Shown: in pieces, positions 2,679 through 10,003 of the stretch
Layout: every line of letters begins with the position of its first letter
Numbering within the stretch: the stretch's first letter is position 1
Assembly: GCA_009783145.1 (NCBI GenBank)
Contig: WRHR01000009.1
Coordinates: 1-38,143 of the forward strand
DNA length: 38,143 nucleotides
Direction: 5' to 3'
DNA from: Alphaproteobacteria bacterium
GTDB lineage: Bacteria > Pseudomonadota > Alphaproteobacteria > Rs-D84
Translations under genes and position numbers: made by a program
Notes under the pieces: generated by a model
What the model saw: only the letters and a program-made list of their open reading frames with translations
Told to the model about the DNA's origin: nothing
Databases searched by the model: none

Positions 2679-3044
2679 ATGAAGAAATTTTTTATTCTCT
2701 TTTACTCTTTTACTCTCTTACTCTGCGCGCCTGCGGCGCGCGCCGACGACTGGCTGCCTAATTTCGAAGACATTCCGAAGATGGACTTGACCTATGTCGT
2801 TGAAGACGACGGGTTCGTATACTCCCAGCCTGACGGAAAAATCGCCCAGACCACCGTCGCATCCGACGCCGTCACCCGCCGCCAATTCCAGCGCTTTTAT
2901 CGCGACGCTTTGGACGAGCTGGGGTGGAAAAAAATCAAAGACGACAGCGACCGGCAGATTTTCCGGCGCGGCAATGAAGAGCTGAAAATAGAAATCGTAA
3001 AGACAGACCCGCTGACCGCGAAGTTCACGGTCGCGCCGAAATGA
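2679..3044 (+). CDS. Small exported hypothetical protein
   Basis: 121 aa. Of two adjacent ATGs (2676 and 2679) the second is preferred because it lies 7 nt after an extended -10 box, suggesting a leaderless mRNA; no SD is visible. The N-terminus MKKFFILFYSFTLLLC...ARA is a signal peptide (cleavage near residue 22). The mature part, about 98 residues, is acidic then basic, with a motif resembling (F)Y-x(2)-T/A-L-x(2)-L-G-W and a C-terminal F-x-V-A-P. This resembles small periplasmic proteins of unknown function in alphaproteobacteria (recollection, not searched). It is convergent with clpB, across a repeat. Confidence 0.7.
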   Translation: MKKFFILFYSFTLLLCAPAARADDWLPNFEDIPKMDLTYVVEDDGFVYSQPDGKIAQTTVASDAVTRRQFQRFYRDALDELGWKKIKDDSDRQIFRRGNEELKIEIVKTDPLTAKFTVAPK

Positions 3045-5775: not shown

Positions 5776-5860
5776 GGCCTTGTGGCGGAACTGGTAGACG
5801 CGCTTGACTCAAAATCAAGTTCTGAAAGGAGTGTCGGTTCGATTCCGACCAAGGCCACCA
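5776..5860 (+). tRNA. tRNA-Leu (anticodon CAA)
   Basis: 85 nt with a 7-bp acceptor stem GGCCTTG/CAAGGCC, long variable arm, T-arm GTCGG-TTCGATT-CCGAC, discriminator A and encoded CCA (5858-5860). The anticodon loop CTCAAAA on stem TTGA/TCAA reads CAA (codon UUG). No own promoter is obvious; it follows rpmB by 8 bp. A palindromic repeat starts directly at the CCA end. Confidence 0.97.
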
Positions 5861-5958
5861 CCCTTCGCCTCTGCGAGGCTTCGGGTGGCTACGCCACCAG
5901 AAATGACGAGCAGTAGCAGGCGAAGGAGTGTCGCCCGAAGCCTCGCAGAGGCGAAGGG
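5861..5958. repeat. Long inverted repeat abutting tRNA-Leu 3' end
   Basis: Arms 5861-5885 and 5934-5958 are perfect 25-bp inverted copies starting CCCTTCGCCTCTGCGAGG. Inside are a second palindrome GGTGGC-TAC-GCCACC (5884-5898) and 35 bp without a clear feature. The left arm starts at the base after the tRNA CCA. The same unit occurs after tRNA-Val (9971-10003) and, diverged, at 7682-7738. The right arm ends in AAGGGGG, which may serve as SD for the next gene. Confidence 0.85.
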
Positions 5959-6974: not shown

Positions 6975-7060
6975 AACTAGATTGCCGCGCCCTTCGGGCT
7001 CGCAATGACAAGTCGGTATAAATTGTCATTGCGAGGAGCGCAAGCGACGAAGCAATCCAG
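6975..7060. repeat. Inverted pair of the TCATTGCGAG repeat
   Basis: Left arm 6975-7010 and right arm 7024-7060 are inverted copies (AACTAGATTGCC...CTCGCAATGAC and GTCATTGCGAGG...GCAATCCAG) with a 13-bp spacer. It lies between the DUF421 gene and the promoter of the RNA starting near 7106. Confidence 0.8.
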
Positions 7061-7070
7061 CAAAAATGCC

Positions 7071-7099: not shown

Positions 7100-7105
7100 T
7101 CCACC

Positions 7106-7282
7106 GGAATCTAACCGGTTCCGGCATCGGGGCTTAGTACACCCCAACAAACTTCTTTCGTAGAAATGCCCTCTGCTCAAAAGGCAGGAGGGCTGGCAAA
7201 ATAAGGCCCTCGGGCCGAATATGCCGCGCTACGGTTTGTTGTAGGTACTAACCTCCTGCCACCATTTTTTGGTGGCTTTTTT
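7106..7282 (+). ncRNA. Structured small RNA, about 177 nt (possible 6S-like rod)
   Basis: The unit runs from a consensus promoter to a strong terminator and has no reading frame. Visible pairing: a 5' hairpin CCGGAA/TTCCGG (from 7104), then a long rod closed by TTAGTAC with GTACTAA (7114-7250 region). It continues, after a small internal loop, with AACAAAC/GTTTGTT and CGTAG/CTACG. Inside sit two hairpins (GCCCTCTGC with GCAGGAGGGC, and GGCCC-TC-GGGCC). A long interrupted rod of this length is the general shape of 6S RNA, which binds RNA polymerase, but I see no diagnostic conserved block. I found no SRP tetraloop, RNase P core or tmRNA tag, so those are unlikely. The class is uncertain; existence as an RNA gene is well supported. 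Confidence 0.65.
7258..7282 (+). terminator. Rho-independent terminator of the 7106 RNA
   Basis: Perfect stem GCCACC (7258-7263), loop ATTTTTT, GGTGGC (7271-7276), then six T. A textbook intrinsic terminator. Confidence 0.9.
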
Positions 7283-7301
7283 ACAAGCACAGGGGGCGAA
7301 A

Positions 7302-7579: not shown

Positions 7580-7607
7580 TTGACAATAGGGATTTTTGTA
7601 TTATATT
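7580..7607 (+). promoter_or_regulatory. Strong sigma-70 promoter of a small RNA
   Basis: Consensus TTGACA (7580-7585), 16-bp spacer, TATATT (7602-7607). A second TTGACA starts 14 bp upstream (7566-7571) in a T-rich stretch. Predicted +1 is near 7614, directly before the first hairpin. Confidence 0.75.
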
Positions 7608-7681
7608 AATCAGCGTAAAGAGGCTTCGGTCGCTTTACAGGGCGCCGGGGTTAGACTCCCTCCTACATTCTCTCTCCTCTA

Positions 7682-7738
7682 ATTCTGGCGCCCACCCTTC
7701 GCTGCTGCGCAGCTTCGGGTGGCTTACGCCACCAGAAT
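7682..7738. repeat. Diverged copy of the tRNA-abutting repeat
   Basis: Outer arms ATTCTGG (7682-7688) and CCAGAAT (7732-7738) enclose CACCCTTCGCTGCTGCGCAG-type sequence, GGGTGG and CTTACGCCACC. The core matches 5861-5898 after tRNA-Leu and 9971-10003 after tRNA-Val. Here it lies inside the candidate small RNA. Confidence 0.65.
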
Positions 7739-7807
7739 AGCAAGTAGCGAACACAGTTTAGAATGTCCTTTTTTCTCCTTCCTTCCTTCCTTTCGGACAT
7801 TCGAAAA

Positions 7808-7834
7808 AACCGCGGCGAACGCCGCGGTTTTTTT
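7808..7834 (+). terminator. Rho-independent terminator of the 7614 RNA
   Basis: Perfect 9-bp stem AACCGCGGC-GAAC-GCCGCGGTT with a T-run after it and an A-run before it; works in both directions. Confidence 0.92.
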
Positions 7835-7948
7835 AATTAGCAATTAGCGATTAGCAATTGGGAGAATGTTAATAGCATTGTCCAATATATTGGACATTTC
7901 CCGCTGTTGCAACAAATTGCTAATTGATAATTGCTAATTGCTAATTAA
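7833..7948. mobile_element. MITE-like palindromic element
   Basis: Perfect 16-bp terminal inverted repeats TTAATTAGCAATTAGC (7833-7848) and its complement (7933-7948), with further AATTGCTAAT units inside each end. At the centre is an 18-bp perfect palindrome TGTCCAATATATTGGACA (7879-7896), with flanking GGGA...TCCC also able to pair. No ORF. The right end supplies the stop codon of the small lipoprotein gene at 7945-8058. The form fits a miniature inverted-repeat element; target-site duplications are not clear. Confidence 0.5.
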
Positions 7949-8058
7949 TACAGCCCGCTTTCTATTTCGCTGAGCAACGCGGCGTCATTATCCTTGGCGC
8001 AACCGCCAACCGCCGCAACCAATGTCAAACACATAAACAGCAATATGATTTTTTTCAT
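7945..8058 (-). CDS. 37-aa lipoprotein
   Basis: Below the usual ORF length cut-off. The N-terminus is MKKIILLFMCLTLVAAVGGC, with a lipobox V-G-G-C-A (Cys20), so Lgt should lipidate it; the mature part is only 18 residues (C-A-K-D-N-D-A-A-L-L-S-E-I-E-S-G-L-Y). Size and form are like entericidin-type or other tiny lipoproteins. A promoter TTGAAT-N17-TAAAAT ends 6 nt before the ATG, so the mRNA is probably leaderless. The stop lies in the palindromic element downstream. Confidence 0.7.
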   Translation of the reverse strand: MKKIILLFMCLTLVAAVGGCAKDNDAALLSEIESGLY

Positions 8059-8093: not shown

Positions 8094-8110
8094 CTTGGTT
8101 CGATTATTTT

Positions 8111-8227
8111 CTGGATTGCTTCGTCGCTTGCGCTCCTCGCAATGACAAGGGAGAACAAGAAGAGGCACATAGCCTAAAACAAACACCGAATTGTCATTGC
8201 GAGCCGCAAAGCGGCGTGGCAATCCAG
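8111..8227. repeat. Inverted pair of the TCATTGCGAG repeat
   Basis: Left arm 8111-8146 (CTGGATTGCTTCGTCGCTTG...GCAATGAC) and right arm 8192-8227 (GTCATTGCGAG...GGCAATCCAG), spacer 45 bp. The spacer shares AAACAAACACCGAATT with the copy near 3150. Confidence 0.8.
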
Positions 8228-8280
8228 TCTTAAATACCGAACCTATATATGTATTCATTTATTATCAATTGGAGGAAAAA

Positions 8281-9893: not shown

Positions 9894-9970
9894 GGGTGAT
9901 TAGCTCAGTTGGTTAGAGCGCTTCGTTCACATCGAAGAGGTCGTTAGTTCGAGTCTAATATCACCCACCA
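9894..9970 (+). tRNA. tRNA-Val (anticodon CAC)
   Basis: 77 nt: acceptor GGGTGAT/ATCACCC, D-arm with GCTCAGTTGGTTAGAGC, anticodon stem CTTCG/CGAAG with loop TTCACAT (anticodon CAC, codon GUG), T-loop TTCGAGT, discriminator A and encoded CCA (9968-9970). It has its own consensus-like promoter and is followed directly by a repeat and terminator. Confidence 0.96.
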
Positions 9971-10003
9971 CCCTTCGCCTCTGCGAGGCTTCGGCTGGCA
10001 AGC
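9971..10003. repeat. tRNA-abutting repeat, copy after tRNA-Val
   Basis: Starts at the base after the CCA with CCCTTCGCCTCTGCGAGG, identical to the first 24 bases of the left arm at 5861, then diverges. Only one arm is present here, followed by a terminator. Confidence 0.8.

Follow-up and report, generated by a model that had tools for sequence, protein, structure and literature searches.

The closest described systems are the cuckoo/alpha-r14 small RNAs (sRNAs), such as NfeR1 and SmelA075, and CcsR1-4 of Rhodobacter, in which two to four hairpins bear conserved anti-Shine-Dalgarno loops while their stems vary freely; NfeR1 acts independently of Hfq and exerts repression through pairing with start regions (PMC10746234, PMC4504443, PMC3927594). 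EcpR1 of Sinorhizobium, also Hfq-independent, folds into two stem-loops with a loop identical in all homologues analysed, and represses dnaA by pairing across its ribosome-binding site (PMC4414408). PmaR of Agrobacterium presents on a long stem an accessible, single-stranded C-rich loop that serves as its target-binding element (PMC6234868). Finally, the phage regulatory RNAs AgvB, SprY and DicF act within host RNA networks (PMC12197685): AgvB imitates the mRNAs that a host sRNA targets, and SprY titrates such an sRNA.

In the window (the whole stretch of 38,143 nucleotides analysed here, from a genome of 0.95 Mb), positions 7580-7834 of the forward strand correspond to a stand-alone small-RNA gene composed of a promoter, hairpins and a terminator, and devoid of any conserved ORF. 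The sigma-70-type promoter, TTGACA-16-TATATT (7580..7607), matches 11 of the 12 consensus positions. When the RNA of the window and those of 22 relatives were folded, a 5' hairpin, H0, appeared at 7615..7638; this element is variable and missing from some genera. Hairpin H1 (7640..7693), supported by its fold, its invariant core and the covariation of its stem, has 16 bp and displays the 22-nt loop 1, CTCCCTCCTACATTCTCTCTCC (7656-7677). Hairpin H2 (7761..7802) displays the 26-nt loop 2 (7769-7794), complementary to the Shine-Dalgarno region of dnaA, whose core in the window reads CTCCTTCCTTCCTTCC (7775-7790) for a family consensus of CTCCTTTCCTTCC. According to the fold, a GC-rich intrinsic terminator with a CCGCGGCG/CGCCGCGG stem and seven T's ends the gene (about 7804 to 7834). 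At -96.6 kcal/mol, the fold of the predicted transcript, about 220 nt long, is far more stable than those of dinucleotide-shuffled sequences (-60.8 +/- 4.4; z -8.1), and not one of the 200 shuffles equalled it. A preliminary description, made from sequence alone, had proposed a promoter leading into hairpins and a terminator without an ORF, along with two loops made of C/U tracts. Both claims held: each tract lies in the loop of one hairpin, H1 or H2, and these loops contain only C and U except for two A's in loop 1. Its 7-bp closing stem failed, the closing stem of H1 being 16 bp long here. The discrete sRNA gene is real as a conserved gene with promoter, terminator, invariant loops, stem covariation and complementarity; its expression is inferred.

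The same description had treated a repeat embedded between H1 and H2 (about 7692-7753), which forms a hairpin of its own, as a feature of the RNA. This interpretation was rejected, as the repeat is missing from the congener G001, in which H1 runs straight into H2, and as its many copies are dispersed in the genome of the window and in relatives. G002 and G012 carry different insertions at the same H1/H2 position. The embedded repeat is a species-specific insertion lying outside the RNA family. Copies of this dispersed repeat are found in the window at 7692-7753, 5858-5902 and 9968-9999, two of them directly 3' of tRNA genes, and many more occur in the genome and the family. Other elements surround the locus. 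A palindromic dispersed repeat of the ATTGTCATTGCGAGGAGCGCAAGCGACGAAGCAATCC type lies on both sides (6976-7064 and 8106-8230), and a long AT-rich inverted repeat (TAGCAATTAGCGATTAGCAATT...; 7838-7943) immediately follows the terminator. The minus strand of 7945-8058 encodes a small ORF of 37 aa with a lipoprotein-like signal (MKKIILLFMCLTLVAAVGGCAK...), and neither this ORF nor the other small neighbour of the sRNA in the window matched Pfam. A second structured RNA candidate with a terminator occupies 7104-7284 (z -7.1); part of it (7183-7268) weakly resembles sRNA-Xcc1 (RF02221) at 37.8 bits, below the gathering score of 53, and no further copy was found among the relatives' loci compared.

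The organism of the window is a member of Rs-D84, an order of the Alphaproteobacteria that groups gut bacteria with genomes of about 1 Mb and includes in GTDB Candidatus Enterousia, host-associated bacteria with reduced genomes (PMC12306168). The contigs sharing the loop belong to gut Alphaproteobacteria of ruminants, horses and other animals, Candidatus Enterousia included. When family homologues from 22 genomes were collected by DNA similarity and then aligned, a 28-nt core showed zero changes while the stems differed. The loop 1 core, AGA-CUCCCUCCUACAUUCUCUCUCC-UCU, is present in 167 of 201 order genomes, all from family f1 (about 183 genomes), and the same pattern read backwards had no match in the order genomes, which excludes chance. 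All listed copies from these 167 genomes are exact save for one paralogue, in which the closing A-U pair is replaced by a compensatory G-C. As a rule, a genome carries a single copy of the sRNA; it was not found in the family genomes G003 (95% complete) and G007 (61%).

Covariation supports the structure. Among 62 distinct sequences, 96.2% of the H1 stem cells are paired versus 79.9% after shuffling, and double changes affect 13 of the 15 pairs around an invariant loop; the pairing is lost when partners are shifted by one to three columns. This alignment was fitted to the model, which somewhat favours the result; alignment A1, built without the model, retains double changes at 12 of 15 pairs. 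H2 was recovered in 109 of 113 distinct loci, as was the terminator T-run, and a TTGACA + TANNNT promoter precedes the loop in 106 of them. Loop 2, CUCCUUUCCUUCC, is nearly invariant in the family, and the H2 stem covaries more weakly than H1 (double changes at 6/11 pairs). Families f2, f3 and f4 harbour a diverged loop 1, CCCUCCU-UAUUUU-CUCUCUCC, on unrelated stems; in f4 the spacer inside the loop is altered and the two anti-purine motifs are kept. First-model E-values for these versions are weak (0.004-0.05), and the match rests on both motifs together with a flanking stem. A candidate homologue from family f5 (G027) was left uncounted, having only the CUCUCUCCUC half in common. As a separate observation, five f4 loci (L197, L198, L199, L202 and L203) contain beside the H1 homologue an extra hairpin with an invariant loop, ACGACCCCUCAUUU. 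No member outside Rs-D84 was detected under strict filters in a class-wide sample of 385 genomes. The RNA is a conserved structured family of the order Rs-D84. The absence of conserved structure in relatives, which according to the preliminary description would have refuted the RNA, is not what was observed, and its other objection, that of a repeat remnant, applies to the inserted repeat only.

How does this family relate to known ones? In Rfam 15, a comparison suggested by the preliminary description, no family reached its gathering score at the sRNA locus, and only three tRNAs did in the whole window; permissive matches at the locus remained below gathering scores, the best ones centring on the terminator stem. 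Membership of an Rfam family was rejected on these grounds. The resemblance to cuckoo RNAs, initially proposed along with differences, held on both counts. Like cuckoo and CcsR RNAs, the Rs-D84 RNA carries conserved anti-Shine-Dalgarno loops on variable stems. Cuckoo/alpha-r14 RNAs are recognised by two to four hairpins each bearing the identical loop CCUCCUCCC, whereas this motif is absent here, no CCTCCTCCC occurs in the window, and the two Rs-D84 loops, of 22-26 nt, are unlike each other; the cuckoo family was therefore rejected. The Rs-D84 RNA is a single-copy, single-gene unit. No DUF1127 gene, as found alongside at the CIN1 locus and in the CcaF1-CcsR type, was recognised next to it, among neighbours that were scanned with Pfam in the window only and assigned by eye in relatives. 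It shares with EcpR1 a complementarity over the dnaA ribosome-binding site, but EcpR1, a Rhizobiales RNA that also targets gcrA, has a GC-rich loop 1, while the predicted dnaA seed here is the CU-rich loop 2, and the sequences are unrelated. PmaR likewise offers a single-stranded C-rich loop on a stem; unlike the Rs-D84 RNA, it has one loop, acts mostly as a positive regulator and is not anti-Shine-Dalgarno. The Rs-D84 RNA likely works like cuckoo/NfeR1 and EcpR1, a mode of action that is inferred, is a member of neither, and is filed as a new family.

Target prediction against Shine-Dalgarno sites, also suggested initially, was carried out for both loops with start regions from about 40% of two genomes. 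For start regions as a class, the true loops had no better mean energy than shuffled loops, whichever the loop, and a general claim of better-than-shuffled pairing is unsupported; pairing specificity resides in a few sites. Within the genome of the window, dnaA stood out for loop 2, at -27.3 kcal/mol versus -20.5 +/- 1.7 for shuffled loops. The loop 2 consensus is the exact complement of the 13-mer GGAAGGAAAGGAG, which occurs in 172 of 201 order genomes (none when read backwards), one copy usually being at the sRNA itself. Wherever the other sites were read, they are Shine-Dalgarno sites, above all that of dnaA: the six second sites first read were all dnaA, its identity being confirmed by Pfam, and across 34 genomes with a located dnaA, 33 of 41 second sites lie 314-359 nt ahead of the DnaA ATPase domain and share its strand. 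The remaining eight are also Shine-Dalgarno sites, seven for a secreted flavodoxin-like protein (L395, L397-L402), with the same 13-mer as dnaA, and one for another exported protein. The 13-mer is absent from the 18 genomes outside f1, where this loop 2 was not found. Over 20 genomes, loop 2 pairs with dnaA at a mean of -21.0 kcal/mol versus -16.2 +/- 1.2 for shuffled loops (0/150 as good), and among start regions the median rank of dnaA is the 0.2nd percentile; loop 1 is unspecific for dnaA, 63% of shuffles being as good.

Several observations temper this association. As dnaA was chosen as the best match in one genome, the other genomes test conservation and are not fully independent. The window's own loop 2 core is a variant that pairs with its own dnaA only via a bulge. 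In part of the family the dnaA site is degenerate and loop 2 unchanged (e.g., G067 and G094), hence dnaA cannot be the sole constraint on this loop. The 13-mer may also have been kept for other reasons, because dnaA leaders share ancestry and an upstream AAACTCTTT is conserved in them too; G003, in which the RNA was not found, still has a similar dnaA site. Given the degenerate sites, the failure of loop 2 to track them and the shared AAACTCTTT, dnaA is best read as one target of several. Independently, the dnaA leaders of f2 and f4 (L309-L321) contain AGGAGAGA or GAGAGAAAA, complementary over 8-9 nt to their own H1 loop type, an observation without background control.

With its 3' half, loop 1 matches the start sites of tolC and of other export proteins, more weakly than loop 2 matches dnaA, and this target set is inferred. 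The complement of that half, AGAGAGAAU, is present whole or in part at the tolC start sites of most of 13 genomes; sites of this type are spread over many genera, and a fusion-protein partner of tolC has GGAGAGAGAA in the genome of the window and in G013. Loop 1 pairs with tolC at a mean of -12.2 versus -9.8 +/- 1.2 for shuffled loops (2/150 as good); loop 2 shows no preference for tolC over shuffled loops. Genes with GAGAGA start sites tend toward signal peptides (p 0.002-0.009 in the genome of the window, 0.035-0.08 in G010), a trend that is suggestive only, given that the predictor was homemade and that several patterns were tried. A search of 40 genomes, allowing up to 3 mismatches, found no single antisense partner spanning all of loop 1. 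Hfq (PF17209) was undetected in all 40 relatives, the control genomes being positive.

The exact 22-nt loop 1 also occurs in six IMG/VR contigs (none for the backwards control). L190, L193 and L194 contain an ordinary sRNA locus. The three others are phage contigs that display loop 1 on different stems of 11-13 bp, without H2: L191 (4115-4136, minus strand), L192 (7907-7928, plus strand) and L195 (11646-11667, minus strand). L195 (36 kb) has an ORF of 2199 aa and encodes a Holliday junction resolvase; L192 encodes an Erf-like annealing protein as well as a Gam-like one; the genes of L191 (231 kb) lack clear matches. A consensus TTGACA-17-TATAAT promoter precedes the loop 1 hairpin in L195 and L191; TTTTTT directly follows the hairpin in the former, and a terminator-like hairpin follows in the latter. 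In L195 only the 22-nt loop resembles the host copies; the similarity reaches into the inner stem in L191 and goes further still in L192. Since L193 shares with L192 the metagenome 3300028888, an sRNA-bearing bacterium was present in the latter's sample. Aside from these, a further exact loop 1 on another stem (2704-2725, minus strand) is found in L099, a contig of 4 kb that carries an HNH endonuclease gene. A collection of named phage records gave only short, poor matches, and the f4 loop was not found in viral contigs. The loop is retained in phages and the stem altered, which speaks for the loop as the active element. Its role in phages could be that of a mimic or of a decoy against loop-binding partners, a possibility put forward without a demonstrated host assignment. 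In contrast to AgvB and SprY, the phage RNA here displays the identical seed loop of the host sRNA on another stem.

Could the loops serve another purpose? They might be held by a cold-shock domain protein, an S1-type protein or another pyrimidine binder, which the RNA would bind or sequester, the Shine-Dalgarno complementarity being a by-product of C/U composition. In favour of this view, a fully invariant 22-nt loop exceeds the needs of a typical 7-13-nt seed, no searched genome offers a single full-length complement of loop 1, and neither loop beats shuffled loops over all start regions. We nevertheless consider it unlikely, as the exact 13-nt partners of loop 2 lie at Shine-Dalgarno sites wherever read, as pairing energies are loop- and gene-specific, and as f4 changes the loop 1 spacer yet retains both anti-purine motifs. 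Even less probable is a general damper of translation, whose loops would compete globally for exposed Shine-Dalgarno sequences without privileged targets. Generic AAGGAG/AGGAG sites do match the loop motifs, and pairing at -12 kcal/mol or better is found in many start regions; against this, each loop has an exact sequence of its own and not a generic one, AGGAGG is seldom found in these genomes, and dnaA stands far above background for loop 2 and not for loop 1.

A 5' leader, riboswitch or attenuator of a neighbouring gene, or a repeat remnant, is all but excluded. The recurrent neighbours look by eye like birA-, trmA-type and lpxI genes, and certain genomes have lpxI about 80-300 nt downstream of the sRNA, which speaks for a leader. 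But the RNA has its own promoter and a terminator ahead of the next gene, its downstream neighbours vary in identity and strand from genome to genome, and the repeat is an insertion missing from relatives. The reading of an anti-Shine-Dalgarno regulatory RNA, put forward at the outset, is supported by comparative evidence, namely about one copy per genome, a covarying stem with an invariant loop, a conserved promoter and terminator, and the 13-nt complementarity to dnaA.

The RNA is likely an Hfq-independent, trans-acting sRNA of Rs-D84 using its two loops as antisense seeds; transcription, pairing, repression, trigger and the loop 1 target set are inferred. Two stable stems would present the long single-stranded C/U loops as separate seeds. 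Loop 2 would pair with the long purine Shine-Dalgarno regions of a few mRNAs, above all dnaA, and thereby block ribosome binding or promote mRNA decay, so that replication initiation could be turned down through dnaA repression. Loop 1 (CUCCCUCCU-ACAUU-CUCUCUCC) would pair with start sites of a different set, among them the unusual GAGAGA-type sites at the genes for TolC and for further exported or membrane proteins. A bolder reading, merely possible as one joint claim, is that this sRNA, working without Hfq, couples replication initiation (dnaA, loop 2) to envelope export (tolC and secreted proteins, loop 1), and that phages infecting the same bacteria have taken over the loop 1 seed alone, placing it on new stems behind strong phage promoters. 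The phages would thereby drive or block the host regulon, for example to reduce a TolC-type surface protein once infection has occurred.

This previously unlisted RNA would be an order-wide sRNA of uncultured, genome-reduced gut Alphaproteobacteria. Its predicted action on dnaA is concrete and parallels that of EcpR1 through unrelated sequence, and the loop 1 copies of phages offer a natural test of seed capture. In bacteria in which Hfq is undetected, it would illustrate the use of long loops as seeds.
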